Positions 18,643-37,609 of a stretch of 55,299 bases of DNA are shown one piece after another; position 1 is the stretch's first letter, and each line of letters opens with the position of its first letter. The notes beneath the pieces were generated by a model. The model made no database searches, was not told where the DNA came from, and saw only the letters and a program-made list of their open reading frames with translations. Source of the DNA: Thermoplasmata archaeon (GTDB lineage Archaea; Thermoplasmatota; Thermoplasmata; Lutacidiplasmatales; UBA184); contig JAKIWL010000003.1 in assembly GCA_022750055.1 (NCBI GenBank), positions 1 to 55,299 of the forward strand. Direction: 5' to 3'. The position numbers and the translations under genes were made by a program.

Positions 18643-19518
18643 CTAGGAGGGAGCGGGTGTGCTTGGAGCGGCTCGGCGACTCAGCCTTCCCGCGAGAGCC
18701 TGACCGATCCGCACGCTGAGGTAGCCACCGAAGGCGATCGCCACGATGAAGAAGCTGGCTGGGTAGTTCGAGAAGAACTGGACGAAGAGACCGACCCAGG
18801 TGGCGACGAGCGCCACCGCCACCGAGGTGAGCACGGCGTAGAGCGGGCGTTGCGTCAACCGGATCGCCACGGCGGCCGGGGTAACCATCAAGGCGAAGAT
18901 CAGCAGGACCCCCACGATCTGAACGGCGATCGAGATAGCCACCGCCAGCATCAACATGAACGCGAGACCGAGGCCGAACATCGGGAGGCCCTTCGCCTCG
19001 GCGACGTCTTCGTCGAGCGAAGCGAACAGGAGGCGACGAGCGATCAGCGCGAGCCCGGCGAGGACCACAGCGGAAACCTCGACGGTCAGGACCACGCCCG
19101 CGTCGCTGATCCCGAGGATCTCCCCGAACAGGAGCGAATAGACTTCGTCGGCGAACCCTTTGTATAGGCTGAGGAACACCAGGCCGAGCCCGAGGGTGAA
19201 CGCGAGCAGCGTGCCGATCTCCACGTCGCGATTCGCGGCGCGTTGGCCGAGCAGCGCCATGCCGGTGCCCATCCCCATCGTGAACACCAACAGGCCGTAG
19301 ACCGGGTTGGCTCCGAGGAGGACCGCGGCGGCGGCGCCCGAGAACCCCCCGTGCCCGAGCGCGTGGGTCGCGAACGCGGAGCGGCGGAGAACCACGAGAT
19401 ACCCCACGATGCCCGCCACGACCGCAATCATCGTGCCGGCCTCGAACGCATTTTGCATGAAGTGGAAGGACCACATCAACCGGAGGTCGGTGACGAGGTT
19501 CCAACTGAAGTCGGTCAC
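18643..19518 (-). CDS. Metal ABC transporter permease (ZnuB/MntB type)
   Basis: This 291-residue integral membrane protein of the ABC-3 permease family has about eight hydrophobic segments and characteristic stretches such as GIVGYLVVLRRSAFATHALGHGGFSGAAAAVLLG and IVGVLLIFALMVTPAAVAIRLTQRP. It forms the channel through which zinc or manganese delivered by the binding protein is pumped in. The start is a GTG that overlaps the stop of the ATPase gene by four bases (GTGA). It is the last gene of the regulator-binding protein-ATPase-permease operon. Confidence 0.92.
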   Translation of the reverse strand: MTDFSWNLVTDLRLMWSFHFMQNAFEAGTMIAVVAGIVGYLVVLRRSAFATHALGHGGFSGAAAAVLLGANPVYGLLVFTMGMGTGMALLGQRAANRDVEIGTLLAFTLGLGLVFLSLYKGFADEVYSLLFGEILGISDAGVVLTVEVSAVVLAGLALIARRLLFASLDEDVAEAKGLPMFGLGLAFMLMLAVAISIAVQIVGVLLIFALMVTPAAVAIRLTQRPLYAVLTSVAVALVATWVGLFVQFFSNYPASFFIVAIAFGGYLSVRIGQALAGRLSRRAAPSTPAPS

Positions 19519-20351
19519 GGCCCCCTTCCTTCGTGGGGGTTCTCCCCCCCGACGATCACGATGTTGTTACGAGAATCGTGAAGCACCTCCACCGAAACCC
19601 CGTACAAGGCCGAGAGGCCCTCCGAGGTCAAGACCTCGTCCGGTCGACCGGTGGCGACGTGGCCGTTTGCGACATAGATCACCTTGTCGAGGCACTCGAT
19701 GAGTGGGTTGATGTCGTGCGCGACGAGGAGCGTGGTCACGTGTCGGGATTGGACGAGCCCATGGACCAGCTCGACCAGCTCTCGACTCCTGCGGAGGTCT
19801 AGGTTGGAGAGCGGTTCATCGAGGAGGAGCATCTCCGGGTTGCCGATCAGTGCCTCCGCCAGGAAGATCCGCTGGAGCTCGCCTCCCGACAATGCGCCGA
19901 GGGGCCGGTGGGCGAGCTCGGTGGCGCCGACGGCACGGAGCGCCACCGCCGCCGCTTCTCGTTCCGCTCGCCAAGAGAACCCTGGGCCCCATCGAGCACC
20001 GGACCCCCCCAACCGGACCAGCGTCTCCGATTCGACGTTCGTCTCGTTGTCGATCGTATGGCGCTGGGGAACGTAGCCGATCCGGGGATTCCCACGTTCG
20101 GGCCGCACCCCGAACACGGTGAGCGTGCCCGCGCGAGGTCGTTGCAATCCGAGGAGCAACCGGAACAAGGTCGTCTTCCCCGCTCCGTTCGGTCCGATGA
20201 GCGCGATGAACTCCCCACGTTCGACCGTAAAGGAGGCGTCCTTCCAGACGACATGGTCCCGGTACCCGACCTCCAGACCGTCAGCGCGGATGACCGACCC
20301 GACGTCGCCGGATCCCCCCCCGGGGGGGTCGTCGAGCCCTTCGCGTCTCAT
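19515..20351 (-). CDS. Metal ABC transporter ATPase (ZnuC/MntC type)
   Basis: This 278-residue nucleotide-binding subunit contains Walker A GPNGAGKTT, the signature LSGGELQRIFLAEAL, Walker B EMLLLDEPLSNLD and the switch histidine in LLVAHDINPL. A His-rich or regulatory C-terminal domain is absent. The start ATG overlaps the stop of the substrate-binding protein gene (ATGA at 20348-20351), and its own stop overlaps the permease start, so the subunits are translationally coupled. The 15 N-terminal residues before the conserved core are Gly/Asp-rich. Confidence 0.93.
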   Translation of the reverse strand: MRREGLDDPPGGGSGDVGSVIRADGLEVGYRDHVVWKDASFTVERGEFIALIGPNGAGKTTLFRLLLGLQRPRAGTLTVFGVRPERGNPRIGYVPQRHTIDNETNVESETLVRLGGSGARWGPGFSWRAEREAAAVALRAVGATELAHRPLGALSGGELQRIFLAEALIGNPEMLLLDEPLSNLDLRRSRELVELVHGLVQSRHVTTLLVAHDINPLIECLDKVIYVANGHVATGRPDEVLTSEGLSALYGVSVEVLHDSRNNIVIVGGENPHEGRGP

Positions 20352-21403
20352 TTCCCGAGCGCGTTGGCATTGAGCGCGTTGTAGAGCTGAAGGTACTCGG
20401 CGTCCATCCAGGTCTGGAAGTCCACGCCCGGGGGCTGGATCGTCTCCGTGACTCCAACGATCGTCACGTTATGCGCCGCGGCGATCGCCTTCAGTTGGAT
20501 CGTGATCGGGGTCACGGTCTGTTGATTGTAGACGAGTACCTTCACCTGTCCGCCTTCAAGTTGGCACTGGAACTGCACGACGCTCTGCGCGGGCGGGTCG
20601 TTGCCTTCGGCCACGGCCTCCATGAACTGTGGGGGAGAGACCAGGTTGAGGTTGGTGTAGTTGGCCAGGTAGACGAAGATGTCCTCGGTGGCCGCTACCT
20701 CCGTCCCAGCGAAATGGGCCTTGATCTGCGCTGCTTCGCCGTACAGCACACCGAGAGATGCGTTGAGGTCCGCGTACTGTTGCTGGAAGTATGCCATCGA
20801 GCCCGGCTGGAGGGAAACGAGGTCGGAGAAGATCGCCTGCACCGTGCGATTGACGTAGATGGGGTTGTACCACATGTGCGGGTTCCCGGACACGATGCCA
20901 CCGCCGACGGTCGGCCCGTTCAGGGTCCCCACGTTGAGGACGACCTGGTTGGACTGGCCGTCCGCCGCCACGAGCTGCAGGGCCCAGTTGTCATACCCCA
21001 CGCCGTTGACGATGATGAACTGGGCGGTGGAGATCGCCGTCGCGTCGGTCGAATTCGCCTCATATTCATGGGGGTCCGCATTGGGGTCGGTCACGATGCT
21101 CAAGACGGAGGTATGGTTCCCTCCGAGTTGGGAGGCGAGGCTGCCCCAGAAATTCTCGGCGGCTACGACGTGGATGACCCCGCTGGCGCTCGGCGCGTCC
21201 CCGGGGTGGCGGAGCGCAGCGTCACCGGGGACCTGGGTGCCGGGGCCGGCAGCGCTCGTCGAATGGCCCGGGGTCGTCAGGGAGGTGGTTGCGGAACGAC
21301 AGGGATTCGCGGGAGGGGTGCTGGTCAGCACTGCATAGGTCCCCACACTCGCCACCGCGATCGCGAACACGATGGCCGCTGCGAGCTTGACCCACTTCTG
21401 CAT
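20348..21403 (-). CDS. Metal-binding lipoprotein-like substrate-binding protein (Zn/Mn family)
   Basis: This 351-residue cluster A-I binding protein is tethered by an N-terminal helix (5-26), followed by a flexible Ser/Thr/Pro-rich linker to about residue 73. Ligand-type residues are His112 in DPNADPHEYE, His176 in GNPHMWYNP and Glu240 in ATEDIFVYL, which falls where zinc-type proteins usually have a third His. The histidine-rich loop of ZnuA is absent. The His-His-Glu set recalls manganese binders such as PsaA. The fourth ligand could not be assigned. The start at 21403 was chosen because it gives the membrane anchor; the longer frame to 22111 runs through the regulator gene. Confidence 0.87.
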   Translation of the reverse strand: MQKWVKLAAAIVFAIAVASVGTYAVLTSTPPANPCRSATTSLTTPGHSTSAAGPGTQVPGDAALRHPGDAPSASGVIHVVAAENFWGSLASQLGGNHTSVLSIVTDPNADPHEYEANSTDATAISTAQFIIVNGVGYDNWALQLVAADGQSNQVVLNVGTLNGPTVGGGIVSGNPHMWYNPIYVNRTVQAIFSDLVSLQPGSMAYFQQQYADLNASLGVLYGEAAQIKAHFAGTEVAATEDIFVYLANYTNLNLVSPPQFMEAVAEGNDPPAQSVVQFQCQLEGGQVKVLVYNQQTVTPITIQLKAIAAAHNVTIVGVTETIQPPGVDFQTWMDAEYLQLYNALNANALGK

Positions 21404-21432
21404 GCTATCGTACCGATCGGTCTCGCGTTCCC

Positions 21433-21864
21433 TCAGCGGTTCCGGCTCGAGGAAGGACACGGGGGGATCGGTTCGCCATGCGGACACGATACGGGATGAC
21501 GCTGGGCCCGACAGATCTCCTCGATCGTCCGGTGAGAGATCGCGAGGTCGATCTCGTGGGCCGCGTGGCAGGTCTCTGAGGGCGGGAGCCCGAGGCGACC
21601 GAAAAGAGTCTCCGCCACCCGGTGGTGTCGCTGGTACTCGAGCATCGTGTCGCGGCCTCTCGCCGAGAGGCGAGTCTTTCCGCGATACCGGACGACCAGT
21701 CCAAGGGTCTCGAGGGGCGTCAGGTGGCCCAAGGCGGCAGGGGGGGTGAGCCGAAGGGAGGAGGCGATGAGCTTCAACGGAACCCCTCGATCGTTCGTCT
21801 CGTGGTTCCGGATGGTCGCCAGGGCGTCGAGCTGTCGACGGGTGAGTTTCTGCAGCGTCTCCAT
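21433..21864 (-). CDS. DtxR/MntR-family metal-dependent repressor
   Basis: This 143-residue protein has an N-terminal winged helix (METLQKLTRRQLDALATI, then VPLKLIASSLRLTPPAALGHLTPLETLGLVVRYRGKTRLSARG) and a metal-binding dimerisation domain (RHHRVAETLFGRLG, CHAAHEIDLAISHRTIEEI, HPVSCPHGEPIPP). These are the standard DtxR/IdeR/MntR blocks, including the Cys and His ligands. The SH3-like third domain is missing, as in MntR. It leads the metal importer operon with a 29-base gap to the binding-protein gene and probably represses it when Mn or Fe is replete. Confidence 0.92.
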   Translation of the reverse strand: METLQKLTRRQLDALATIRNHETNDRGVPLKLIASSLRLTPPAALGHLTPLETLGLVVRYRGKTRLSARGRDTMLEYQRHHRVAETLFGRLGLPPSETCHAAHEIDLAISHRTIEEICRAQRHPVSCPHGEPIPPCPSSSRNR

Positions 21865-21885
21865 CGCGGGATGGAAGTCGGCACA

Positions 21886-21900
21886 GAATATAATGGTACC
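21886..21900 (-). promoter_or_regulatory. Promoter and possible operator of the metal-uptake operon
   Basis: On the minus strand GGTACC (a six-base palindrome at 21895-21900) is followed directly by ATTATATT (21886-21893), a TATA box 22-29 bases before the DtxR start. The palindrome sits where TFB would bind. Symmetry beyond six bases is weak. Confidence 0.45.
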
Positions 21901-22165
21901 CTAAATTATTAGTATCACCGAATTTTCTACCGTTTCCTCGGTCCGGCGCGCGGACGGTGTGCCCCCCGAAGGCCTCCGGACCTGGCTGGCCGCTGCCTCG
22001 CCCCGTCCAAGCCGACCGCCTCCTGCCTCGCGATCGAGAAACGGGTGACCCGCCGACCGGGGTACGTCCGAGATTCGGGGGGTCGGGGGGACGTCCCTGC
22101 TTGGAAAGCATCGCCGCCGGAGCCCGGCGGGGCCGAATCCGCCCTCCGAGGATCCAGGGGGGTCG
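21901..22165. other. Intergenic region between the zinc-ribbon protein gene and the metal operon
   Basis: The first 30 bases are AT-rich (AATTATTAG, AATTTTC) and probably belong to the promoter of the metal operon. The rest is GC-rich, and I see no gene, repeat or RNA in it. Confidence 0.45.
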
Positions 22166-22922: not shown

Positions 22923-23675
22923 TCACCTCCCTGCGGCGAACCGGTCGACATACCACGCAGTCCGATCTAGCCCACGGACCTGGGCCGCCGGGGCCACCGG
23001 TTGCCCCGCCCGAGGGTTCAACACGTTCGAAAGGGCCGTGCGTTTCTCCTTGCCCGCGACGAGGAAGAGGATCTCTCGAGAGCGGTTCAGAGTGGCCAAC
23101 GAAACGGAGATCCGGGGGACGTTCGGCGGTTGGGTTGGGGTCGGTTCCACTCCGACCCACCCCGCCGTGTTCTTCAGGAGGGGAGAACCGGGGAAGAGCG
23201 AAGCCGTGTGCCCGTCCGGCCCGATCCCAAGCAGGGCGAGGTCGAAGAGGGGTTCGGTCGGTGGGTTGGCCCCGGGCGCAAAGAACTGACGAAGCTCAGA
23301 GTGGTAGACCCGCGCGGCTTCCTCGGCCGAGGGGAGCTCTCCCAACACCCGATGGATCCGTTCCGATGGGGTCGAGAGGGGGCCGAGCCAGGTCCGGGCG
23401 GCCAGCCCGTAGTTGCTCCGGGGGTCGTGCGGTGCGACCGCGCGCTCGTCCGCCCAAAAGAAGTCGACCTCGCTCCAGGGTGCGGCGTCGCGAAACTCGT
23501 CGGCCAGGATCCGAAAGAGGGTCTCGGGCGTCGCGCCGCCCGAGAGCGCGAGGGCGAAGCGGCCGCGCTCCTCCAGGCTCGAACGGGCGAGGGAGACGAC
23601 CCGCTCCGCGAGGGATCGGGCAGCGGTCGCTAGGTCGGGTGAGATCTCGACCCGGGGGGTTACGGAGGACACCAC
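22923..23675 (-). CDS. pgl: 6-phosphogluconolactonase
   Basis: This 250-residue member of the DevB/SOL family hydrolyses 6-phosphoglucono-lactone to 6-phosphogluconate. Family motifs are FALALSGGATPETLFRIL, WSEVDFFWADERAVAPHDPRSNYG and LALLGIGPDGHTASLFPGSP. The start is a GTG at 23675 inside the end of zwf, preceded by GGAGG with seven-base spacing; a second GTG follows immediately. The overlap with zwf and the order zwf-pgl place it at the end of the sugar operon, directly after the enzyme that makes its substrate. Confidence 0.93.
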   Translation of the reverse strand: MVSSVTPRVEISPDLATAARSLAERVVSLARSSLEERGRFALALSGGATPETLFRILADEFRDAAPWSEVDFFWADERAVAPHDPRSNYGLAARTWLGPLSTPSERIHRVLGELPSAEEAARVYHSELRQFFAPGANPPTEPLFDLALLGIGPDGHTASLFPGSPLLKNTAGWVGVEPTPTQPPNVPRISVSLATLNRSREILFLVAGKEKRTALSNVLNPRAGQPVAPAAQVRGLDRTAWYVDRFAAGR

Positions 23676-25120
23676 TCGTGCCCCTCCGTCCCGAGGAGCT
23701 CCTCGGCCGCCTTCGGGCCCCAGCTCCCGGCCGGATACGGTCGGATCCTCGGTGGGTTTCGCAGCAGCGGCCCGAAGACCCGCCACGATTCCTCGACCTC
23801 GTCCGCCCGAACGAACAGGGTCTGGTCCCCTCGGAGGACGTCGAGGATGAGCGTCGGGTACCCGTCGGAGAGCGGGCCGAACGCCTCCGAATACCGGAAG
23901 TGGAGCTGGTGAGACTCGAGGGAGATCGCATGGCCCGGCCGCTTGATCTCGAACCCGAGCTCGAACCCCTCGTCCGGCTGGAGGGTGATGCTGAGCGTAT
24001 TCGCATGGATCTCCCCACCCTCCATCGGTCCGAAGAACCAGACCGGGGGTTGACGGAACCGGACCACGATGCGGGTCAGCTTCGTCGCCAGGTGTTTGCC
24101 GGTTCGGAGGTAGAACGGGATGCCATGCCACCGCCAGCTGTTCACCCCCAGGCGCACCGCGACGAACGTCTCGGTCGACGATCGGCGCCGGACCCCCGGT
24201 TCGTACCGGTAGCCGACCACGTGTTCCCCATCGACCGACCCCGCGGTGTACTGCCCGAAGATCGCGTCCTGCGGTCGGATGGGTTCGAGGGAGCGCAGCA
24301 CCTTGACCTTCTCGTTACGGACCTGGTCCGCCTCGAGGCTCGTCGGGACTTCCATAGCAGCCAGCGTCAGGAGCTGCGCCAGATGGCTCTGGACCATGTC
24401 ACGCAGCGCCCCCGTCTGGTCGTAGTAGGCAGCCCGGTTCTCCAGTCCGAGCTGCTCGGCGACCGTGATCTCCACGTGTTCGACGCGGTCGCGGTTCCAG
24501 ACCGACTCGAACAGCATGTTCGCGAACCGGAAGACGAGCAGGTTCTGGACGGTCTCCTTCCCGAGATAATGGTCGATGCGGTAGACCTCCTTCTCGTCGA
24601 ACGACCGGTGGATGAGCTGGTTGAGGGAGCGCGCGGAGGCGAGGTCCCGCCCGAAGGGCTTCTCGATGACGAACCGCGTCCAACCCGGTCCGCGGTTGAG
24701 CCCGGCCGACCCTATCGCGCGGATCGTCGGGGGGAAAGCCTCCGCCGGAAGAGCGAGGTAGAGCACCCGGTTCCCCGAGGTCCGCTGCGTTCTCTCTTCC
24801 TCCTCGATCTGGGTTCGGAGACCGTCGAACTGCTCGGCGGGTTCGGCGGCGAACGAATGGAAGGCGAGGTGTCGGGCGGCCCAGGCCGTCGCGTCCGAAC
24901 GGGTTGCGGCCTTCGCCGCGACGAGCGAACGGACGGCGTAGCTTCGAAATTGGCGCTCGGTCCAGGGCCGTCGGGAACAGCCGAGAATTCGGAGGGCCGC
25001 GGCCGCGGGACCTGTCGAGGTCGTGATCGCGTAGAGGGCGGGGAGGAGCTTACGCTCCATGAGGTCGCCGGTGGCGCCGAGCACGACGAAGAGGTCGGGG
25101 CGCACGCGAGGCTTCCCCAT
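23660..25120 (-). CDS. zwf: Glucose-6-phosphate dehydrogenase
   Basis: This 486-residue bacterial-type enzyme oxidises glucose 6-phosphate to the lactone with NAD(P)+. The nucleotide-binding GATGDL (15-20), the EKPFG loop (153-157) and the active-site signature RIDHYLGKE (181-189) are intact, and the length matches bacterial Zwf. The ATG at 25120 lies four bases after the gnd stop. Classical Zwf is rare in archaea, which generally make pentoses through the ribulose-monophosphate route; haloarchaea use an unrelated enzyme. Transfer from bacteria is the likely origin, although GC content does not differ visibly from the neighbours. Confidence 0.96.
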   Translation of the reverse strand: MGKPRVRPDLFVVLGATGDLMERKLLPALYAITTSTGPAAAALRILGCSRRPWTERQFRSYAVRSLVAAKAATRSDATAWAARHLAFHSFAAEPAEQFDGLRTQIEEEERTQRTSGNRVLYLALPAEAFPPTIRAIGSAGLNRGPGWTRFVIEKPFGRDLASARSLNQLIHRSFDEKEVYRIDHYLGKETVQNLLVFRFANMLFESVWNRDRVEHVEITVAEQLGLENRAAYYDQTGALRDMVQSHLAQLLTLAAMEVPTSLEADQVRNEKVKVLRSLEPIRPQDAIFGQYTAGSVDGEHVVGYRYEPGVRRRSSTETFVAVRLGVNSWRWHGIPFYLRTGKHLATKLTRIVVRFRQPPVWFFGPMEGGEIHANTLSITLQPDEGFELGFEIKRPGHAISLESHQLHFRYSEAFGPLSDGYPTLILDVLRGDQTLFVRADEVEESWRVFGPLLRNPPRIRPYPAGSWGPKAAEELLGTEGHEWCPP

Positions 25121-25124
25121 CCCG

Positions 25125-26030
25125 TCACTCCGTCTTGACGGCGTGGCCCCCGAACTCCTGGCGCATCGCCGCAAGGAGCTTGTCGACGAGAGGGTCCGAT
25201 TCCCGGGAGCGGATCCGGCGCTCCAGGGCCAGCATGATGACCGGGGCCGAGACGTTGAGGTCGAGGGACTCGAGGACCGTCCACCGTCCTTCCCCCGAAT
25301 CGGAGACGAACGGGGCGATCTGGTCGAGCTTGGCCCGATCCTTCAGCGCGTCGGCGGTCAGGTCGAGCAACCAGGAACGGATCACGCTGCCGCGTTGCCA
25401 GATCCGTGTCACCTGGGCCAGGTCGATCCCGTACTCCTTCTTCGCGTCCAGGACCGCGAGCCCTTCGGCGTAGGCTTCCATCAGTCCGTACTCGATCCCG
25501 TTGTGGACCATCTTGACGTAGTGGCCGGCCCCGTGGCCACCGACGTGGCCCCAGCCGGCATCGGGAGCCGGGGCGAGGGTCTCGAGGGCCGGTCGCAATC
25601 GGGCTACATCGTCCGCGTCGCCTCCCACCATCATCGAGTACCCCTCCTCCAACCCCCAGATCCCCCCGCTCGTCCCCACATCGACGAAATGGAGGCCCTG
25701 GCCGCTCGCTTCAGACGCGTGCCGCACGGTATCCTTGTAGTAGGAGTTTCCACCGTCGACGATCAGGTCCCCCTCGGACAGGAGAGATCCGAGTTCCCTC
25801 AGGGCAGACTCCGTCGCGTCGCCGGCGGGGAGCATGAGCCAAACCGTCCGTGGCGGGACGAGCGCCTCGACGAGGGCGGGAAGGGTCGCGGCTCCTGTCG
25901 CCCCCAGGGCCACCGCCGCGTCGATGAGCTCCTGACGTCGGGCCTGGCCCACGACGCGATGGCCCCCACGGACCAGCCGGGTCGTCATGTTTCCGCCCAT
26001 CCGGCCGAGTCCGACCATCCCAAGTTGCAT
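25125..26030 (-). CDS. gnd: 6-phosphogluconate dehydrogenase, decarboxylating (short GndA-like form)
   Basis: This 301-residue enzyme oxidatively decarboxylates 6-phosphogluconate to ribulose 5-phosphate. It has the Rossmann motif GLGRMGGN (7-14), DGGNSYY (92-98), the substrate loop GTSGGIWGLEEG (119-130) and the catalytic Lys173 in HYVKMVHNGIE. The short length is that of the YqeC/GndA subgroup, many members of which prefer NAD+, and not of the 470-residue NADP enzyme. It sits 21 bases after pgi and 4 bases before zwf. Confidence 0.94.
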   Translation of the reverse strand: MQLGMVGLGRMGGNMTTRLVRGGHRVVGQARRQELIDAAVALGATGAATLPALVEALVPPRTVWLMLPAGDATESALRELGSLLSEGDLIVDGGNSYYKDTVRHASEASGQGLHFVDVGTSGGIWGLEEGYSMMVGGDADDVARLRPALETLAPAPDAGWGHVGGHGAGHYVKMVHNGIEYGLMEAYAEGLAVLDAKKEYGIDLAQVTRIWQRGSVIRSWLLDLTADALKDRAKLDQIAPFVSDSGEGRWTVLESLDLNVSAPVIMLALERRIRSRESDPLVDKLLAAMRQEFGGHAVKTE

Positions 26031-26051
26031 GGATCTTGCCTGCCTCCCGTA

Positions 26052-27728
26052 CTACCCTTGGACGAACTTCGTCACGGCGAGGATCCCCAGGTCCGCATCC
26101 TTCCCGACGTCGACCTTGGCAAGGCGCCGACCCGTCTTGAGCAACGCACCGGCGTCGCCGTCCGCTTGGGCTCTCAGGATCCCTCCGAACGTCGTCGGAC
26201 CCGGTGGCACCATAACGTCCTCGGTCACCCCTTGTACAAGCTGGAGGAAGAGCCCAGAGTTCGGGCCCCCCTTGTGGAGCTGGCCAGTAGAGTGGAGAAA
26301 CCTAGGTCCGTACCCAAGCGTCGTGCTTACTTTGAGGCGCTCGCGAAGGACGGTACGGAGACCCCGGAGCGCCCGGTCCACCTCCGGCGAGGGCGCGACG
26401 AAGGCCTGGATCGCGAGATAGTCATCGGCGCGCGCGCTCGCCAACCAGGGGACGAGCGTTGCCCCGAGGGCAGAGGCATTCTCGGCGAGAGCCCGTTCCG
26501 GGGCGGTCGCCTTCGAGCCGATCGGGTTCGCCATCGCCTCGCGAGCGAGCTCCTTGGCGAGCTCGACGTCCGGCTGGTCGAACGGGTCGATCCCGAGGAC
26601 GGAGCTCGCCGAGGCGACGGCGATCTCCCAGCGGAGAAACTCTCCGCCAAGGTCGAGCCGGTCGGAGAGCTCGCAGACGACCGCGGGAGTTCCCTCCGCT
26701 TCGGCCTGGGCGAGCGCTCCGTCGATCTTCTCGTCCTCCTCGCCTCGAACGGTCAGGTAAGCGAGGACGCGGTCGGTCGCCCTGAACGAATCGAAGCGGT
26801 CGACCTCATCGGCGATGGGGATGATCCCGCGTCCGAGCTTCCCCGTGCTCTCGGCGATCAATTGCTCGGCCCACGACGGAAACGCCGTCAGGGACGGAGA
26901 GGCGAGGAAGACTACCTTATCGCGACCCGCGACGGCGAGCTCGCCCAGTTCCGCGCCGAGTCGGAGGGCGGGGTTCTCGGCGACGTCGACATCCGCGCCG
27001 CACGCCTTCGCCATCCGCCCGGCGTGCTCGAGCAACCGGCCGACGGGGACCCCGAGCAGCGCCGCCGGGACGAGCCCGAATTCCGTGAGGGCGCTGTACC
27101 GTCCCCCCACGTCTGGGTTCGGGGTGAACGACTGGCGGAATCCCTTCTCCTCGGCGAGAGCTTCGAGCGGCGTTCCAGAATCGGTGATCGCGCAGAACTG
27201 TTGGCCGGGGTCGGCGGAAACAGCGGTGACCTCCTTCCAGAAGTAGGCGAAGTAGGAGTTCGGTTCGAGCGTCGTCCCCGACTTGCTTGAAACGATGAAG
27301 AAGATCTTCTCGAGGGGAATATCGGCAGCGGCCCGACGGACCGCATCCGGATGGGTGCTGTCCAGGACGTGCAGCGAGGGATGCCCCTTCGCCGGACCGA
27401 ACGTCCGCGCGATCACCTCGGCAGCGAGGCTCGATCCGCCCATGCCGAGGAGGACCACGCGTTCGAACCCGTCCTCGCGGACCTCGTCGGCATTCTCGAC
27501 GATCCCCTCGACCCGTTCTTTCATGGTCATCGGGAGCTCGGTCCAACCCATTCGCGACCGGACGACCTCGGGGGGTGCGGCGGGCCACAGGGTCGGGTCG
27601 TGCCGCCAGAACCGGGGGCCGTACCCCTCCCGACCCCACGTTTGGAGCCGGGCGGTCACCTTCGCTTCGAATGCCTCGAGGTCCGTCCGGGGGTCTCCCG
27701 TACTGCCGGTCGGTTCGGGCAGGCTCAC
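26052..27728 (-). CDS. pgi: Glucose-6-phosphate isomerase
   Basis: This 558-residue isomerase interconverts glucose 6-phosphate and fructose 6-phosphate. SIS-domain motifs are [32 protein letters not shown] and [21 protein letters not shown], with the late [13 protein letters not shown] that carries the conserved His and Lys. The sequence resembles the isomerase half of bacterial transaldolase-isomerase fusions, but the transaldolase half is absent. The start is a GTG overlapping the tkt stop (GTGA). Archaea more often use cupin-type or bifunctional isomerases, so this gene also looks bacterial. Confidence 0.94.
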
Positions 27729-29740
27729 GGAGCCGCTCCCTCCCTGGGGAGATGAAGTACCGATAGGGCAGCCGCGACCACGTTCTCCGGGGTGAATCCC
27801 AAGCTCGCCAGAACGGCCGCTCCCGGCCCGGATGCGCCGAATCGCCGTAGGCCCACGACGGCTCCCTCGGTCCCGACGTACCGTTCCCATCCCATCGGGC
27901 TCGCGGCCTCCACCGCCACCTTGGGCACTCCCGGCGTGACAACGCTCTCCCGGTAGGAGTCGGTCTGTTCCTCGAACAGCTCCCAAGACGGCATCGAGAC
28001 CACCCGCGCGGGGATCTTCCTGGAGGCAAGCAGGGCCTGGGCGGCGAGGCATAGTTGGACCTCTGAACCCGTCCCGATGAGGATGACCCGCGCCGCGCCG
28101 CCTGCGGCCTCGGCGAGCACGTACGCACCTCGGGGAGCTCCCGTCGCCACCGGATACTTCGTCGGATCGAGGACCGGCACCTTCTGACGGGTGAGCACGA
28201 TCGCCACCGGCCCCTTCCTCGAAACGGCCGACCGCCAGGCTTCCGTCACCTCGTTCGCGTCGGCCGGACGCAACACGGTGTATCCGGGGATCGCCCTCAG
28301 CCCCGCGAGCTGCTCCACCGGCTCGTGGGTGGGGCCGTCCTCCCCCAGGCCGATGCTGTCGTGGGTGAACACCGTGATCGTATGGATCCCCATCAGGGCC
28401 GAGAGCCTCAACGCCGGGCGGGCGTAATCCGAGAAGATCAGGAACGTCGCGCCGTAGGGAAGGATCCCTCCGTGCAAGGCCATTCCGCTCACGATCGCGG
28501 TCATCGCATGCTCTCGGACCCCGTAGTGGAGATTGCGTCCCCACTGTGGGCCGAACGAAAAATCGCCATCTCCTTCCAGAAGGGTTCGCGTGGAGGGGGC
28601 GAGGTCCGCGGATCCCCCGATCAGCTCGGGCAACCGGCGGGCGACCTCCTGCATGAGCTGGGTCGACGCGTCCCGCGTCGCCATCGTGGGAGGGTCGGGG
28701 CGGAAGCTTGGGAGTCCGCGCGCCCAATCCACCGGCAGCTCGCGCCGCATCATCCGCTCGAACTCTCTCGCGAGGTCGGGGAACTCGGCCCGATACTGGC
28801 GGAGGAGCTCGGTCCATTCCCCCTGACGGCGGGATCCCGTCTCGAGGGCCTGGCGGAAATGGGTGCGGACCTCCTCCGGGATCAGGAACTCGGGTTCGGT
28901 CGGCCAGCCTAGCTTTTCCTTCGTCGCCTTCGTCGCGGCAGGTCCGAGCGGCTCGCCGTGGGCCTCCTTCGTGTCCTGCTTCGGGCTACCGTATCCGATA
29001 TGGGTCCGAACCCGGATAAGGTGAGGGTGATCGGGCTCCTTGCGCGCCGTCCGGATCGCCGTGTCGATCGCGTCGAGGTCGTTGCCTTCGTCGACGTGGG
29101 ACACCGCCCAGCCGTACGACTCGAACCGACGGCCCACATCCTCCGTGAACGTCAGGCTCGTCGGACCCTCTAGGGAGATGTGGTTGTCGTCGTAGAGGTA
29201 GATCAGCTTGCCCACCTTCAGGGACCCGGCGAAGGAGGCGGCCTCAGAGGCGATCCCTTCCATCAGGTCCCCATCGGAGCAGAGCCCGTAGGTCCAGTGG
29301 TCCACGAGCGCGAATCCCGGACGGTTGAACCGGCTCCCGAGGTAGTGTTGGGCCAGGGCAAATCCGATCCCGTTCGCAAAGCCCTGGCCGAGCGGACCGG
29401 TGGTCGCTTCGACCCCAGGGGTATGCCCGAACTCTGGATGGCCGGGGGTGCGGCTCCCGAGCTGGCGAAACCGCCGGAGCTCGTCCATTGGGAGGTCGTA
29501 GCCGGTCAGGTGCAGCAGGGAGTAGAGGAGCGCGGAGCCGTGTCCGGCAGAAAGGACGAACCGGTCCCGATCCCACCAGTTCGGATCGGCCGGATTGTGC
29601 TTCAGATGGCGACTCCAGAGCACGTACGCCATCGGGGCCGCTCCCAGAGGGAGGCCGGGGTGGCCCGACTTGGCCCTCTCCACCATGTCGACGGAGAGGA
29701 ATCGAAGCGTGTTGACCGACCGGTCGTCGAGTCCGCTCAC
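27725..29740 (-). CDS. tkt: Transketolase, full length
   Basis: This 671-residue single-chain transketolase moves two-carbon units between sugar phosphates with thiamine diphosphate. Seen in order are [27 protein letters not shown], the thiamine-diphosphate motif [19 protein letters not shown] with the downstream N in YDDNHIS, the pyrimidine-domain REHAM, and [15 protein letters not shown]. Archaeal transketolases are usually split into two short subunits, whereas this one is the bacterial form. The start is a GTG sharing one base with the stop of the kinase gene (TAGTG). Co-transcription with gnd and zwf points to a pentose phosphate cycle. Confidence 0.96.
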
Positions 29741-30780
29741 TATGGAGCCTCTCGTTCGAGCAGGGATCGGGCCCGGTCCGCTGCCCCGACGACCCCTGCG
29801 TCTTCGCCGAGCCCCGCCCGGACCATCCTTAGCGGCGCGACGGCGGCCGCGAGCGCCCGCTGCCGAACGAGGGCCTCCGTGGCGGGGATGAGGCTCGGGA
29901 GCCCTTCGATGACGCCCCCGCCGAGGATGAGGACCTTGGGGTTCAGGGAGTTCACGATGCTGACGAGCCCGGCAGCCAGGTACTCCACCGTGGCCTCGAG
30001 GATCTCCTGGGAAAGGGGGTCACCGCCTCGATAGGCATCCGTGACGGTCTCGGCGGTGATCCGGTCGATCCCGCCGGCCAGCTCCCGCAGGCGGCCCGAA
30101 TCGTTCGGCCGTGACTTGGCGAGTTCGCGGGCTCGTTCGGCGATCGCCCAACCTCCGACATAGGCCTCCAGGCACCCGGAATTGGGACAGTGGCAACTAC
30201 GTCCGTCCGAGACGATGGTCAGGTGGCCGAGTTCGCCGGCCGTGCTGGAGGCCCCGTTTTGAAGATGCCCGTCGGCGACGATCCCGCCTCCGACGCCCGT
30301 CCCGATGAAGAGACAGACAAGGTCGCGTTCACCGCGGCCCGCCCCGAACTTCCATTCTCCGACAGTAGCCGCTCGGACGTCGTTCGTCACCATCGCTGGG
30401 AGCCCGGTCGCCTTGGCGAGCTTCGCTGCGAGCGGGACGTTCCGCCAGGGAAGATTCGGCGCCCAGAGTAGCGTGCCGTCCCGTTCACGGATCTGGCCGG
30501 CTACCCCGGCGCCGATCGCCTTCGCGCCGCGGGCCGAGTCGCCGAGGCAAGTCTTCACGCAAGACGCGATGACGGCGACGATCTGGTCCGCCGAATCGGT
30601 GGTCTCCGTCGCATGGCGGTGGGATGCTCGGACCGAACCATCCGCGGAGACGACGGCCAACGCAATCTTGGTCCCGCCCATGTCCACCCCGATCGTGAGC
30701 GAGTCGGGCCTCGCTCGATCGGCCGGCGGGTCCGCCCGGTCCGAGGCGCTCCCGGGGCGCGTTCGGGGCTTGTTCGGCAT
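29740..30780 (-). CDS. ROK-family sugar kinase, probably glucokinase
   Basis: This 346-residue protein carries the phosphate-1 motif [14 protein letters not shown], a GTGVGGGIV loop, the catalytic-region GELGHLTI and the zinc motif [11 protein letters not shown], which matches the ROK consensus apart from Pro at one usual Gly. It likely phosphorylates glucose with ATP and feeds the isomerase and dehydrogenase encoded behind it; N-acetylmannosamine or fructose as substrate cannot be excluded. The start ATG at 30780 follows the conserved length; the preceding 33 in-frame codons are not protein-like. A DNA-binding domain as in ROK repressors is absent. It is the first gene of the six-gene operon. 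Confidence 0.9.
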
Positions 30781-30993: not shown

Positions 30994-31016
30994 CGGTGTA
31001 TCTCCTGCGGCCTTCC

Positions 31017-33965
31017 ATGCCCCGACCGATGGCGAACCTCAGCTCGCAGACGAAGACCGCATTCCTCATTCGCGCAGTCCTGGTGGTGAGCGTGCTCGGG
31101 TTCATGGTCCTCGGGGGCCTTCAGTTCGGGACCGCTCCCCGGTCGACGGCTTCGGTCGGGACGCCTTCCAAGGTCGACACGTTCGCAACGGGAGCCGTCT
31201 TGATCGCAGGCGCTGCGAGTTCGCTGTCGACGGGCGCTGGACCTGCCGCGGGCCTTGCTGCCTCCTGCGTAACTTCCTCGGCGCTGGCCGCCTCCTGCTC
31301 GACGTTGAGCTCGGCTCGGCCCCGCCCGGCGATCAGCCCGAACGGGACCTGGATCAACATCACCGGTTCGTTGCTTGCCGGAGCCCCACCGAATGGGCCC
31401 CCCCCCCGCTACATCGGCACCATGGTGTACGATGCGTATGACGGGTACGTGCTGATGTTCGGGGGGGAGGGACCGACCGGACTGCTCGGGGACACCTGGA
31501 CCTATCAGAGCGGAAAATGGATTCAGTTGACCGAGTCGGTCTACCCGGATCCGAGGTACGGCGGGCAGATGGCCTACGATGCCGCCGAACACAAGGTGAT
31601 CCTGTTCAGCGGTTATGATATCAACCTCGCGATGTGCGTCAACGATACCTGGTCCTTCTCGAACGGTACCTGGACCCAACTGTCGGCCAGCGGTCCGGCG
31701 TCGAGGTGGCGCGGCGGCCTCGCGTACGACACCGACGCAGGCTATCTGCTCCTGACCGGGGGGACGGCCGTCAGTGGGAATCCTGTTTATGCGGACACCT
31801 GGAAGTTCGTCAACGATACCTGGGTGGATCTGACCGCGACCGTGACCGGGACGCCTCCTACGTTGTATCGGGCCTCCATGGTCTACGATTCCTTCGACCA
31901 CGAGTTCGTATTCTTTGGGGGTACTACCAAGACCGGGACCATCGTGACTCAGACGTGGACCTTCACGAACAACAATACGTGGAAGATGCTCACGCTCACG
32001 ACCGCCCCGGTAGCCCGTGTCTATGTGGACATGGTGTACGACGACCAGAAGTCCGCCGTGCTCCTCTTTGGAGGCAGCACCACCTCGAGCGGCGGCACCA
32101 TCGAAATGGACACGTGGGTGTTCCAGGGCGGAAGCTGGACCAAGCTCCTCCCGAAGGTCTCGCCCACGGCCCGCGGCTACGGGATGATCGCCTACGACCC
32201 GGTCGGTGGATACGTGATCCTGTTCGGCGGCTATAACAATGTGAAGTATTTCGACGACTCCTGGACCTTCAGCGCGGCGGCCGTGGTCTGGGGCACGGCC
32301 ACTCCCTCGGCCTTTGATGCCGGCCTTTCTACCGTACTCAGCATCACCGTCGTCTCTACGTTGACGAATCTGACCATCTATTACCTGGGCCTCCCGGCAG
32401 GGTGCGTGTCGAACAATTCGACCCGGCTCGCGTGTACGCCCACCCAATACGGCAACTTCGATGTCCTCGCTGGCGTCAACGACAGCGTGGGCGACAACGC
32501 CTCGGCGAACATCTCCCTCCAGGTTCGGGAGGACCCGACCGTGAACGGGTTCGCGTTCTCCCCACCGGCCGTCGACATCGGGTACACGACCAATATCAGC
32601 GCGAACGTCACGGGGGGAACCGGAGCGCTGGTCTACGACTGGACGAAGCTCCCACCCGGCTGCACCTCGGCGAACGCGTCCAAGATCTCCTGTACTCCAA
32701 ACCAGACGGGTGCCTTCCCGGTTCGGCTGATGGTCAAAGATCAGGTCGGGATCAACGGCACCGGTCAAACGACCTTTACGGTGAACGCGACCCCAACGAT
32801 CCAGCGGTTCTATGCCTCCCCCGCGGCGATCGACCTGGGGCAGTCCACGGTGTTCCACGCCGATGTGATTGCGGGAACCCCCCCGTATCAGTACAATTGG
32901 CAGTATCTCCCGGCGGGTTGCACTTCGAGTAACACTCCTTCGATCGCGTGCACTCCGGTCGCTACCGGGCTGACCCGCGTTGAAGCGGAGGCGACGGATG
33001 CCTTCAATGCGACCCTATTCGGGAACATCACACTCCAGGTGAACCAGGACCCGGCGTTCGCCTCTGCGGCGGTGTCTCCGGGTACGGTCGACGCGGGGGC
33101 CAAGGTCACGCTGTATTCGAACGTGACCTTTGGAACGGTGCCCTACACCTACAGCTTTCAGAACCTCCCGGTAGGATGCGCGCCCACGAGCTCGAAGGTC
33201 AGCACCTGCACACCCACGCAGATCGGCACGTTCACGATCACCGCGAAGGTGGTCGACGCCGCGGGGACCCCGGTGTTCTCTCGAGCCCTTCACCTCACCG
33301 TCGTTCCCGACCCTGCCATCGCCGCCTTCAACGCGAGCCCTGCGGCCACGGACGTCGGAAAGTCGGTGGCGCTATCGGTGAACGCGATCCAAGGCAGCGG
33401 ATTGTTCGTCTATGTGTATTCGGGACTGCCGTCCGGCTGCTCCACATCGAACACCCAGTCTCTGACGTGCACGCCCACCGTGGCGGGTCGTTCCACGATC
33501 GTGGCGACGGTGACCGACTCGGAGGGGAAGTCCGCTACGGCGAATCTCAACCTCACGGTCAGCAAACTGCCCACCGTCACCCTCACGGTCGCTCCCACGT
33601 CGGTCCAGCCGGGACAGTCGGTGACGTTTACGGTTACGACCACCGATGGGGTGAGCCCGTTCACTTACCATTATTCCGGCCTCCCATCGGGATGCTCCAC
33701 GCAGAACGCGCCCACCCTGACCTGCGCTCCGTCGTCCTCCGGGACGTTCACAGTAACGGTGACGGGGACCGACAAGGCGACCGCATCGGCCCAGGGTTCC
33801 GCGCAGCTCGTGGTGAAGAGTTCGACCTCGGGTTCGTTCTTGGGCCTTCCGCTCCTCGCGGGCGTCGGGATCGTCCTCATCGTGATCCTGGTCGTCATCG
33901 TCGCCGTCGCGCTCATGATGCGACGCCGCCGAAAGCCCCCCGCTGCGGAGACCGAAAAGCCCTAG
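31017..33965 (+). CDS. Membrane-anchored Kelch propeller with six Cys-paired Ig/PKD-like repeats
   Basis: This 982-residue surface protein starts at the ATG at 31017, chosen from the TATA spacing; a GTG at 30996 and an ATG at 31029 are alternatives. A signal helix lies at about 15-36. Residues about 110-425 contain six Kelch blades (MVYDAYDGYVLMFGG, DTWTYQSGKWIQL and similar). Six Ig/PKD-like repeats of about 85 residues follow, each with a LPxGCxxxN...xxxCTPxxxG motif that brings two cysteines 10-12 residues apart, suggesting one short disulfide loop per domain. A C-terminal helix (about 945-968) and MRRRRK anchor the protein. It is rich in N-x-T/S. It resembles the Kelch-FN3 protein at the left end in architecture. 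Confidence 0.85.
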   Translation: MPRPMANLSSQTKTAFLIRAVLVVSVLGFMVLGGLQFGTAPRSTASVGTPSKVDTFATGAVLIAGAASSLSTGAGPAAGLAASCVTSSALAASCSTLSSARPRPAISPNGTWINITGSLLAGAPPNGPPPRYIGTMVYDAYDGYVLMFGGEGPTGLLGDTWTYQSGKWIQLTESVYPDPRYGGQMAYDAAEHKVILFSGYDINLAMCVNDTWSFSNGTWTQLSASGPASRWRGGLAYDTDAGYLLLTGGTAVSGNPVYADTWKFVNDTWVDLTATVTGTPPTLYRASMVYDSFDHEFVFFGGTTKTGTIVTQTWTFTNNNTWKMLTLTTAPVARVYVDMVYDDQKSAVLLFGGSTTSSGGTIEMDTWVFQGGSWTKLLPKVSPTARGYGMIAYDPVGGYVILFGGYNNVKYFDDSWTFSAAAVVWGTATPSAFDAGLSTVLSITVVSTLTNLTIYYLGLPAGCVSNNSTRLACTPTQYGNFDVLAGVNDSVGDNASANISLQVREDPTVNGFAFSPPAVDIGYTTNISANVTGGTGALVYDWTKLPPGCTSANASKISCTPNQTGAFPVRLMVKDQVGINGTGQTTFTVNATPTIQRFYASPAAIDLGQSTVFHADVIAGTPPYQYNWQYLPAGCTSSNTPSIACTPVATGLTRVEAEATDAFNATLFGNITLQVNQDPAFASAAVSPGTVDAGAKVTLYSNVTFGTVPYTYSFQNLPVGCAPTSSKVSTCTPTQIGTFTITAKVVDAAGTPVFSRALHLTVVPDPAIAAFNASPAATDVGKSVALSVNAIQGSGLFVYVYSGLPSGCSTSNTQSLTCTPTVAGRSTIVATVTDSEGKSATANLNLTVSKLPTVTLTVAPTSVQPGQSVTFTVTTTDGVSPFTYHYSGLPSGCSTQNAPTLTCAPSSSGTFTVTVTGTDKATASAQGSAQLVVKSSTSGSFLGLPLLAGVGIVLIVILVVIVAVALMMRRRRKPPAAETEKP

Positions 33966-35132: not shown

Positions 35133-36293
35133 TCAGGCGGGGTCGGGACGCCTGGGCCACAGGCTCCGGGCCGCCACTAGGTGCATGATCTCCGACGGGC
35201 CGTGGGCGAGAGCGCCGCTGCGGACGTCACGCCACCTACGCTCGTGGGCGAGTTCCTTCGAGTACCCTTTCCCTCCCGAGAATTGGATCGCGTGATCGAT
35301 CGCGGTCAAAGCCACCTCGGTCGCCATCCACTTCGCGAGGGCCGATTCGGCCTCGACGGTCTCTCCCCGCTCCATCCGTTCGAGGGCCCGGTAGGTGTAC
35401 AACCACGCGGCATCCAGACGCGCCCAATCCTCCACGAGGGGAAACCCTACCGCTTCGTGGGAGGCGATGGGTCGTCCGAACGTCGCCCGCCCCCCTGCGT
35501 ACTGAACGACCTCATCGAACGAGGAACGACCGACCCCGAGGTAGATGGCGGCGAGCAGGAGCCGCTCGCGAACGAGCTCGCCCTTCAGGTAGTCGAACGC
35601 GCGTCCCTCCGGTCCGATCCGTTGCGCTTCGGTCACTTCGACCCCTTCATAGTGGACGGTCCCTCGACGCATCCAGCGCTCCCCGAGATCGTCCTGGGTC
35701 GAGCGGTGAATCTCCGGCCCGTCCTGAGGAACGACGAACGCGGAGATCCCCGCGCTCGAGGCGGTCCTCGGGGCGGTCCGAGCATAGACGATCGCCGCGT
35801 CCGCGTCGACGGCGAAGGCGGCCTGGCTCTTCGTGCCGGTCAGCCGATACCCCGGACCGGTCCGCTCGGCCCGCAACGCCAGGGCTCCGGCGTCGGCCCC
35901 TGCCTCGGGTTCCGTGACCTGGTTCCCGACCAGCATCTCGCCCCGCACGAGCGGTCGAAAGTACTGGTCCACCAGCGCCGGCTCCCCATGCTCGCCGAGG
36001 ATCCCGGCAAACTCGGGCTGGAGGGAGAGCTTCGCGAAGGTGGTCCCCGCCCGGTACGCCAGGTGGTGGAGAGCGATCCCGACCGTGGGCAGCGCGAGTC
36101 CCCGTCCTCCGAGTCGTTGAGGGGTGCGTAGACCCAGGAGGCCGAGTCGTCCGAGCTGTTGGAATTCCGACCGCGGGAACGCGGGATCCCGGTCCAGCTC
36201 CGCCGATCGCTTCGCTAGGTTGAGCGTCCGTACGGCCGCCTCGACCTCGGCCACGATCGGATCGTGGGGAATCGGCGCTTCCGACGGGTTCAC
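35133..36293 (-). CDS. Acyl-CoA dehydrogenase family protein
   Basis: This 386-residue flavoprotein has the ACAD fold: N-terminal helical domain, then MLVGNQVTEPEAGADAGAL and YRLTGTKSQAAFAVDADAAIVYA in the beta domain, and QFSGGKGYSKELAHERRWRDVRSGALAHGPSEIMHLVAARSL at the C-terminus (quoted in parts). At the place of the usual YEGTSEI base the sequence is AHGPSEI, so the common catalytic Glu is His; related groups such as ACAD10/11 also vary here. The start is a GTG overlapping the CaiB-type gene stop by four bases. Together they recall the CaiA/CaiB pair of carnitine metabolism, but the substrate is unknown. Confidence 0.87.
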   Translation of the reverse strand: MNPSEAPIPHDPIVAEVEAAVRTLNLAKRSAELDRDPAFPRSEFQQLGRLGLLGLRTPQRLGGRGLALPTVGIALHHLAYRAGTTFAKLSLQPEFAGILGEHGEPALVDQYFRPLVRGEMLVGNQVTEPEAGADAGALALRAERTGPGYRLTGTKSQAAFAVDADAAIVYARTAPRTASSAGISAFVVPQDGPEIHRSTQDDLGERWMRRGTVHYEGVEVTEAQRIGPEGRAFDYLKGELVRERLLLAAIYLGVGRSSFDEVVQYAGGRATFGRPIASHEAVGFPLVEDWARLDAAWLYTYRALERMERGETVEAESALAKWMATEVALTAIDHAIQFSGGKGYSKELAHERRWRDVRSGALAHGPSEIMHLVAARSLWPRRPDPA

Positions 36294-37609
36294 CGAGCCT
36301 CCCGGAGAAAGAACGGGGGCGGGTCGGGCACGTCGGTGGGGCCGGGCCGGCAACTCCCCAGAGTCCCGTCCCGCTCGAGGAGCTCGATCGCGGATTCCGA
36401 ATAGCCGAGGATCTCCTCGAGGATCGCCCGGTTGTCCTGTCCAAGCCAGGGCGCTCCGCGCCACACCTGGCCGGGGGTCCGTGCGAACTTGGGAACGATA
36501 CCGGCCCCCTTGACCCGACCGGCCACCGGGTCGTCCCACTCTAGGAACATCGAGCGTTGCCGATAGTGGGGGTCGCGGGCGATGTCGGAGATATCGTAGA
36601 CCCGGGAGATGGCAAGGTCGATCTCTCGGCCCGTCTGCTCGAGCTCTCCGGCGGTCCGGGTCCGGAAGAGCGCGGTGATCGCCTCGTCGACCCGCTCCCG
36701 ATGACCGGCCGCCCACTCGAGCGAATCGGACCCGGCCTCGGTGATACCGACCAGGGTCCGGACGGTCTGCCACGCTCGCGGCGTTGGCGCCGCGAGGACG
36801 ACCCAGCCGTCCCGGCACGGGTAGACATCGTAAGGGTACAGCCGGGCGTGCGACCGGCCATGACGCCCCCGGACCACCCCTCGCAAGAAGTAGTCAAGGG
36901 CGAGGTTTTCGAGCAGCGTAAAGAACACCTCGTACTGGGCCACGTCGATCGATTGGCCGAGCCCGGTTCGCTCGGAATGGACGTAGCCGAAGATCGCCGC
37001 GGCGGCCGCCGCTAGCCCCGTGACCGTGTCGTTCATCGCCGTGCCGGCTCGCATCGGCGGCGACGGCTCCGGATCGCCCTGGAGCGCGAGGTAGCCACTG
37101 AAGGCCTGACCGGTCAGGTCGAACGATGGGGAACGGACCCGGTCGCGCTCGCCGGTCTGGCCGAATCCCGAGACGTGGACGATCGTCAATCGAGAGTTGG
37201 CCGCGTGGACCTCGATGTCGGAGAGGCCGAGCCGGTCGTACGTCCCCGGGCGGGACGATTCGACCCAGATGTCCGATTGGCGCACGAGGTCGAGAAAGAC
37301 CTTCCGGCCCCGGGGAGTCCGCAGGTCGAGGCCCAAGGAAAGCTTGTTGCGCGAATACTGGACCCAGGATTCGGAGACGCCTTGAGGGGGACTTCGTCCC
37401 TCCGGCACGATAGGAGGAAGGCTTCGCGTCGGGTCCGAGAACGGGGGTTCGAACGGCGGGCCCTCGACATGGACGACTTCCGCCCCGAACTCCCCGAGGT
37501 AGGTCGCGGCCCACGGGCCGGCGACGAACCGCCCAGAGTCGATGACACGGATCCCGTCGAGCGGACCGAACGACGGAACGATCCGCCCCTCCGAGCGACG
37601 GGGTCCCAT
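36290..37609 (-). CDS. Family III CoA-transferase (CaiB/BaiF type)
   Basis: This 439-residue protein has the family III layout: LDGIRVIDSGRFVAGPWAATYLGEFGAEVVHVE at the N-terminus (in parts), KLSLGLDLRTPRGRKVFLDLV, and PSFDLTGQAFSGYLALQG, where the Asp is the expected catalytic nucleophile that forms the acyl-enzyme anhydride. It moves CoA between carboxylic acids. It is the first gene of a two-gene operon with an acyl-CoA dehydrogenase and is transcribed divergently from the di-metal protein gene. A TATA box 24-31 bases before the ATG indicates a leaderless transcript. Confidence 0.9.
   Translation of the reverse strand: MGPRRSEGRIVPSFGPLDGIRVIDSGRFVAGPWAATYLGEFGAEVVHVEGPPFEPPFSDPTRSLPPIVPEGRSPPQGVSESWVQYSRNKLSLGLDLRTPRGRKVFLDLVRQSDIWVESSRPGTYDRLGLSDIEVHAANSRLTIVHVSGFGQTGERDRVRSPSFDLTGQAFSGYLALQGDPEPSPPMRAGTAMNDTVTGLAAAAAAIFGYVHSERTGLGQSIDVAQYEVFFTLLENLALDYFLRGVVRGRHGRSHARLYPYDVYPCRDGWVVLAAPTPRAWQTVRTLVGITEAGSDSLEWAAGHRERVDEAITALFRTRTAGELEQTGREIDLAISRVYDISDIARDPHYRQRSMFLEWDDPVAGRVKGAGIVPKFARTPGQVWRGAPWLGQDNRAILEEILGYSESAIELLERDGTLGSCRPGPTDVPDPPPFFLREAR

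Follow-up and report, generated by a model that had tools for sequence, protein, structure and literature searches.

What becomes of a native core enzyme when a bacterial operon bringing its own version of that enzyme enters an archaeal genome? The question is raised by a window of 55,299 nucleotides from a Thermoplasmata archaeon (GenBank assembly GCA_022750055.1, contig JAKIWL010000003.1, positions 1 to 55,299), which contains an oxidative pentose phosphate operon of six genes, ROK kinase-tkt-pgi-gnd-zwf-pgl, running from position 30780 to 22923 on the minus strand. Replacement of a core enzyme by a transferred gene is usually seen only when it is finished. Comparison of the window genome (G000) with its relatives makes it very probable that the acquired operon displaces the native split transketolase of its hosts. 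Operons of this type were already known in bacteria; the link to the decay of the native transketolase, which the preliminary description of the window missed, and the orphan subunit that this decay leaves in many genomes are new.

Genomes without the operon retain a native cluster, nfo-tktN-tktC-talC. Its transketolase resembles the split-gene enzyme of Carboxydothermus, with the PP domain on one chain and the Pyr and C-terminal domains on the other; both chains are needed there, according to the accessible part of the report (PMC7661550). In contrast to Carboxydothermus, where both chains are active, many operon carriers have just the second chain left, and its active site is eroded. The native locus was taken from 82 genomes, 81 of which were classed as carriers (51) or non-carriers (30). 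A carrier is defined by a full-length transketolase match, with the exception of G012, assigned by zwf and TAL/PGI on broken contigs; 48 of the 51 also showed other genes of the operon. Left out of the table of 81 were G463, with a TalC fragment only, and G006, G015, G017, G019, G020, G022, G030, G033, G442, G456 and G459, whose native locus was not fetched or found.

Five TktN and three TktC positions, which we assume from known transketolases, were placed by motif, and an enzyme is called dead from its sequence. All eight positions are kept in 26 of the 30 non-carriers and in a single carrier. The native transketolase is dead in 50/51 carriers against 4/30 non-carriers (Fisher p 6e-16, with kinship ignored). 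The association persists when only carriers with operon genes seen are counted (47/48 dead, p 2e-15), when three contig-end cases are dropped (44/45, p 7e-15) and, most strictly, when carriers off the pattern at one residue are taken as intact (39/45, p 2e-10). Kinship was approximated by a quick tree of TalC and Nfo from 79 genomes, on which the operon state requires at least 17 changes and the native state at least 14. Among nine independent pairs on starred branches, a mean of 6.2 show decay together with the operon, none the opposite and 2.8 no difference; the corresponding p has a median of 0.031 and a range of 0.016-0.125.

Several observations weigh against a simple displacement. One carrier with operon genes, G437, has all eight positions intact, and displacement is thus not automatic; G008, G012, G031, G445 and G466 depart from the functional pattern at one of the eight positions only. 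Conversely, the native enzyme is dead in four scored non-carriers, G467, G450, G465 and G436. The operon may be lacking from their assemblies; on the proxy tree G467, G450 and G436 sit close to carriers, and a weaker grouping unites G465 with six further rows, each of them a carrier. In G062, G439 and G441 a full-length transketolase is present and gnd and zwf were not seen in the stretch fetched. The proxy tree itself leaves 21 of its 76 inner branches open. In-frame TGA codons in some split tktN matches were not used as evidence of decay, as these matches overrun the usual gene end.

The carriers can be arranged in a series in which the native enzyme would decay stepwise, from catalytic residues to erosion of tktN, its loss and, in some lineages, the loss of tktC as well; a full-length operon transketolase would make the two-subunit enzyme redundant. 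In the first stage both halves are present (nine carriers); the catalytic Glu of TktC is kept in six and the His in four, and TktN positions are hit in G009, G031, G443 and G466. Nine carriers keep tktN at no less than 60% identity to the reference. In the second stage (G025, G275, G461) tktN is eroded. In the third, comprising 25 carriers including the window genome, tktN was not found and tktC is open; nfo lies upstream without an intervening tktN in 22 of these, and in the remaining three the locus is cut off by the edge of the contig. In G034, G036 and G462 the contig ends about 170 nt or less from tktC, and the absence of tktN was read from genome-wide PF00456 searches. In the window genome nfo adjoins tktC, the operon tkt is the sole PF00456 match, and with no split match to this family the partner tktN was not found. 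Neither half was found in the fourth stage, represented by G001, G002, G434, G444, five genomes of genus g24, three of g27 and three of the four g28 genomes sampled (the window's genus and family are denoted g1 and f1; g24, g25, g27 and g28 are other genera and f39 is another family). In eight stage 4 genomes of g24, g27 and g28, a gene judged by eye to encode a winged helix and a coiled coil-like region stands between nfo and talC (loci L263, L267, L268, L270, L271, L272, L276 and L278). Damage to TalC was observed in G001, G002 and G456, all of which have TAL, and was not seen in any carrier without TAL; three cases are too few to claim reciprocal decay of TalC and TAL.

The subunit left in third-stage genomes, TktC*, departs from its functional counterparts unevenly. 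That of the window genome exceeds the cut-offs for both PF02779 (Pyr, 45.9 bits) and PF02780 (C-terminal domain, 84.4 bits), and its catalytic Glu, Asp and His motifs are replaced. These positions of the Pyr domain, presumably the same as in known transketolases, are kept in 1, 4 and 1 of the 25 carriers without tktN, and in 26, 27 and 26 of the 27 non-carriers with the pair. Compared with the functional consensus, the 25 orphans are 18-67% identical in the Pyr domain and 47-81% in the C-terminal domain; the 27 non-carrier pairs average 88% and 82%. The orphan frames, 27 with those of G450 and G465 included, are open over at least 311 codons, and the motifs remaining in them lie around RVLDxASxKPxD, RAARxTGA and PVPVRR.

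The ratio of nonsynonymous to synonymous substitution rates (dN/dS), obtained by pairwise counts under the assumption that tktN was lost before each split, ranges over nine chosen orphan pairs (seven separate groups) from 0.25 to 0.79 in the Pyr domain and from 0.14 to 0.43 in the C-terminal domain. It is lower in the C-terminal domain in all nine, with bootstrap upper limits of at most 0.65. Functional pairs show the reverse in six of seven, the Pyr domain being the tighter and the C-terminal domain the looser. As dS is substantial in both domains (at least 0.57 in both in eight of the nine orphan pairs), selection on DNA signals is spoken against, and as the two domains have one history in common, the reversal is not a matter of timing alone. 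It is thus quite possible, and we propose it tentatively, that the C-terminal domain has a non-catalytic role for which selection has kept the orphan after the erosion of its active site. One possibility is that the domain binds and modulates the acquired transketolase, by analogy with human TKTL1, a non-catalytic relative reported in the accessible part of PMC12525540 to form heterodimers with TKT via a terminal region; another is that it senses a sugar phosphate. TKTL1 and TktC* are both retained relatives of transketolase; TKTL1 is a near full-length paralogue, whereas TktC* is a lone subunit of Pyr and C-terminal domains.

Somewhat more doubtful, in our estimate, is the alternative that tktC is an outgoing pseudogene or is retained through weak residual constraint on the C-terminal domain that serves no specific function. 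The absence of tktC in stage 4 genomes indicates that it is dispensable there. The C-terminal domain is looser than TalC of the same genome (dN/dS 0.01-0.22) in all nine pairs, five of the nine have overlapping bootstrap intervals for the two domains, and in three of 15 compared pairs, all involving G461, the domains do not differ. All these points also weigh against a retained function. A pseudogene would not readily account for the consistently lower dN/dS of the C-terminal domain and its bounded upper limits, for dS of this size in both domains or for the opposite order in functional pairs.

The operon itself has the layout expected of a single transcript, as neighbouring genes overlap or are separated by no more than 21 nt: the ROK kinase stop and the tkt start overlap at 29740, tkt and pgi have a GTGA in common at 27725-27728, 21 nt separate pgi from gnd and 4 nt separate gnd from zwf, and the start of pgl falls within the end of zwf. 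The observation made in the preliminary description, six co-directional genes with overlapping or near-touching ends, is confirmed in gene order and families, and its interpretation is partly supported. Its gene identities held for Zwf, Gnd, Pgl and transketolase, which all exceed their curated NCBIfam cut-offs (Table 1), and needed qualification for the other two. The kinase belongs to the ROK superfamily and scores 222.8 bits against the ROK glucokinase model TIGR00744, below the cut-off of 260.35; it is probably a glucokinase. The match of the isomerase is confined to the second half of a TAL/PGI fusion profile, and the sequence identifies this protein as the PGI half of that family without the transaldolase domain; the complete fusion in the relative G001 scores 1150 bits against the same model, NF007080. 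Gnd passes models labelled NADP as well as NAD.

Table 1. Genes of the operon, its neighbours in the window, and further pentose phosphate genes of the window genome (C1 and C2 are contig labels)
Feature	Position	Strand	Details
ROK-family sugar kinase	29740..30780	minus	ATG at 30780, upstream GTG starts also possible; Pfam ROK 229.5 bits
Transketolase (tkt), bacterial-type full-length, 671 aa	27725..29740	minus	TIGR00232 850.5 bits, cut-off 682
Phosphoglucose isomerase (pgi)	26052..27728	minus	NF007080 profile positions 388-944, 574 bits, cut-off 712
6-Phosphogluconate dehydrogenase (Gnd), short form, 301 aa	25125..26030	minus	NF007161 430 bits (cut-off 271), TIGR00872 361 bits (297)
Glucose-6-phosphate dehydrogenase (Zwf)	23660..25120	minus	ATG at 25120; TIGR00871 541 bits, cut-off 400.6
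6-Phosphogluconolactonase (Pgl)	22923..23672	minus	GTG at 23672 or 23675; TIGR01198 200 bits, cut-off 124
Zinc-uptake ABC genes (ZnuA-like binding protein, ATPase)	19515-22111	minus	close downstream of pgl
Kelch and PKD protein gene	30996-33965	plus	divergent from the operon
Acyl-CoA dehydrogenase and CoA-transferase III genes	35133-37609	minus	adjoining; overlap in the list of open reading frames
rpe	C2:66678-67268		
rpiA	C1:262995-263510		
TalC-type transaldolase	C1:253850-254491		Glu in the AEV motif
Orphan transketolase subunit (TktC*)	C1:about 254527-255480	minus	

Gene order and phylogeny agree with the earlier proposal that a bacterial module was acquired. In the more careful Zwf tree (64 rows), all 32 rows of the window's family form one clade (91/78), which is nested among bacteria beside one Nitrospira and 14 of the 17 Armatimonadota rows; a betaproteobacterial metagenome-assembled genome (MAG) falls outside. 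The bacterial sample is small, consisting of 251 genomes (the phylum of one Zipacnadia genome), some plasmids and a few genome hits, and the 17 Armatimonadota rows stem from the 20 best loci of those 251 genomes. Judged by these sequences, the operon is bacterial in origin and its Zwf closest to Armatimonadota among the bacteria sampled; we name no donor. The Armatimonadota (Zipacnadia) loci L208-L214 have the order tkt-gnd-zwf-pgl, with Zwf 52-54% and Gnd 53-57% identical to those of the window and Zwf in the sister position; no PGI or kinase was found in this cluster, and one genome of this kind has its PGI on a different contig. A Streptomyces plasmid has the order tkt-gnd-zwf. The order tkt, (tal/)pgi, short gnd and zwf of the window recurs in plasmid2 of Fischerella sp. 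NIES-4106 and pTK2 of Sphingobium sp. TKS, the latter with only a partial zwf match after gnd. The window differs from these operons in its leading ROK kinase, its archaeal host and its lack of a transaldolase domain, whereas many archaeal relatives keep the TAL/PGI fusion and add a hydrolase of the HAD family. The fusion between tkt and gnd, a trait of the bacterial operons, is absent from the window and present in G001.

Two main forms of the operon occur among the carriers. Type A is that of the window, and type B has the order tkt-TAL/PGI fusion-HAD hydrolase-gnd-zwf-pgl. The type B hydrolase, of about 200 aa, lies between pgi and gnd (for example L096:9395-10010). A further ROK protein follows pgl in 16 of 18 compared type B loci, at a distance of 2.4-2.8 kb in two; the one member scanned resembles a polyphosphate glucokinase with a score of 58 against a cut-off of 250. 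This downstream protein is conserved (e.g. L165, L171) and differs from the ROK kinase leading type A. Mixed forms combine the leading ROK kinase with HAD in the absence of TAL (G449, G451), retain HAD without TAL (G341, G438), or lack TAL and HAD (G418) or TAL, PGI and HAD (G161); in G024 tkt and pgi are about 7 kb apart. The sequences make loss of TAL inside the family plain only where HAD stays without it, in G341, G438, G449 and G451. Such a loss is not claimed for the window's own lineage, as stand-alone PGI of the TAL/PGI family also occurs in bacteria, namely in genomes reached via one Zipacnadia and one Nitrospira locus. Two full-length-type transketolase matches each were observed in G346 (C52, C84) and G466 (C133, C34), the second match of G466 being cut by a contig end.

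Among 61 genomes, Zwf was found in 21 (20 above cut-off), all belonging to the 37 of the window's genus, and in none of the 24 from other families. Across 389 genomes of the phylum it was found in 15: 13 of the 23 listed members of the window's family and two of the 366 others, both of family f39. The Thermoplasmata MAGs AcS5-34 and SubAcS13-24 are among the named relatives matched. An approximately unbiased (AU) test rejects one clade of f1 and f39 Zwf (p 2.7e-5), and f39 Zwf groups with Fischerella, Nostoc, Sphingobium and Bradyrhizobium (94/80); by their sequences the f39 genes seem to have been acquired separately. A second cluster, pgi-gnd-pgl-zwf, was observed in another family of Thermoplasmatota (L172 of G270, 9.3-13.6 kb; L173 of G315, 8.5-12.8 kb). 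It is apparently independent, with a Zwf near cyanobacterial and alphaproteobacterial sequences.

Within the window's family, which appears to belong to Lutacidiplasmatales, the operon probably spread further among members after its acquisition. An alternative that we regard as unlikely is that operon and split transketolase were both present in the family ancestor, whose descendants lost one or the other with no later transfer. Reciprocal loss of this kind accords with the sister relation of type A and type B Zwf, which group together without G024 (31 rows, 97/92), and of PGI likewise, of which 30 family rows group together in a quick tree (99) whose midpoint root cannot show nesting among bacteria. 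In the Gnd quick tree the 31 type A and B rows also stand together (95), with G024 unplaced, and the base of the transketolase tree is unresolved. The nine carriers with tktN at the identity given above fit an ancestral coexistence, as do flanking genes common across genera (53-63%). Among the latter, genes just downstream of the operon are common to G024, G314 and G401 (59%), genes further downstream to G036, JOPF149 and G418 (62-63%), and upstream genes to G161, G341 and G418 (53-59%), and these tell against transfer between genera. On the other side, a lasting coexistence would seem to be rare, since the full set of scored catalytic residues survives in only one carrier of the 51. The operon genes also do not track genera: the AU test rejects a single clade for the 21 Zwf rows known to come from the window's genus (p 1e-46, for a group chosen after the tree was seen), and the transketolase of G346 (g25) pairs with that of G010 (g1) at 99/93, the rest of the surrounding clade belonging to g1. 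Upstream genes are common only to small groups among 29 operon loci (G000-G027; G036-JOPF098-JOPF149; G001-G002; G025-G035-G005; G314-G401; G161-G341-G418 at 53-59%; G063-G161), with those of G024 shared weakly with G341 and G161. Many compared carriers thus have no upstream gene in common, though several flanks are too short to tell. Taken as a whole, these comparisons of sequence and gene order favour transfer of the operon within the family.

That the operon derives from contamination or from a chimeric contig, as its bacterial families and Zwf placement might suggest, can be practically dismissed and is rejected on assembly quality (1.52 Mb in five contigs, 94% complete, 0.25% contamination), on its position in a 377 kb contig with archaeal-type neighbours, on its recurrence across genomes and the phylum, with operon genes in 48 of the 51 tabulated carriers, and on the linked decay of the native archaeal locus. 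The archaeal character of the surroundings noted in the preliminary description is borne out by nearby genes for 3-dehydroquinate synthase II (DHQS-II), DUF2070 and PcrB, which we take to be archaeal or mostly archaeal kinds. No tRNA was found in the window with ARAGORN. A 48% protein-level match to the Kelch and PKD protein encoded beside the operon is present upstream of the G027 operon (L033) too.

The pathway encoded by the operon can be extended by host genes. The preliminary description had suggested that, for want of transaldolase, rpe and rpiA, the module could run as a branch generating NAD(P)H, and this part of its interpretation is not supported: rpe, rpiA and a TalC-type transaldolase are encoded elsewhere in the window genome, and PGI can close the cycle. 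Fructose-6-phosphate aldolases presumably carry Gln at the position of the AEV-motif Glu of TalC, a difference that favours transaldolase activity for the host protein. Together these genes can, as predicted from sequence, make up a complete cycle from glucose, which would lead through the kinase, Zwf, Pgl, Gnd, Rpe/RpiA, transketolase and transaldolase, with PGI leading back to glucose-6-phosphate. An HxlB-like match in the window genome reaches 141 bits, under the cut-off of 160, which is exceeded in five of the 61 genomes.

To our knowledge, the haloarchaeal glucose-6-phosphate dehydrogenase is unrelated to Zwf. The haloarchaeal pathway resembles that of the window in being both oxidative and archaeal, whereas the window's enzyme is a bacterial Zwf; in the accessible part of PMC9700705, most halophilic archaea are said to have the oxidative pathway, and members of Thermoplasmatota to have non-oxidative homologues. 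The description of Lutacidiplasmatales (PMC9287336), whose type genome is AcS3-62, reports complete glycolysis in many members, and the portion of its main text consulted makes no mention of pentose or transketolase. The oxidative enzymes are lacking in another soil Thermoplasmata genome, according to the available part of PMC9038741. The operon proved widespread in the family, one half of a condition that the preliminary description had named for setting its reading aside; of the other half, an earlier account, the literature searched (partial texts, supplements not included) holds no description of either the operon or the orphan subunit.

The setting of the operon is more interesting than the first reading held. 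One archaeal family shows the stages of a replacement side by side, with its non-carrying relatives as controls, and the domains of transketolase are pulled apart in it, catalysis being dropped and the C-terminal domain more constrained. If the orphan is indeed kept for a non-catalytic function, this series of soil archaea would make the role of the transketolase C-terminal domain testable.

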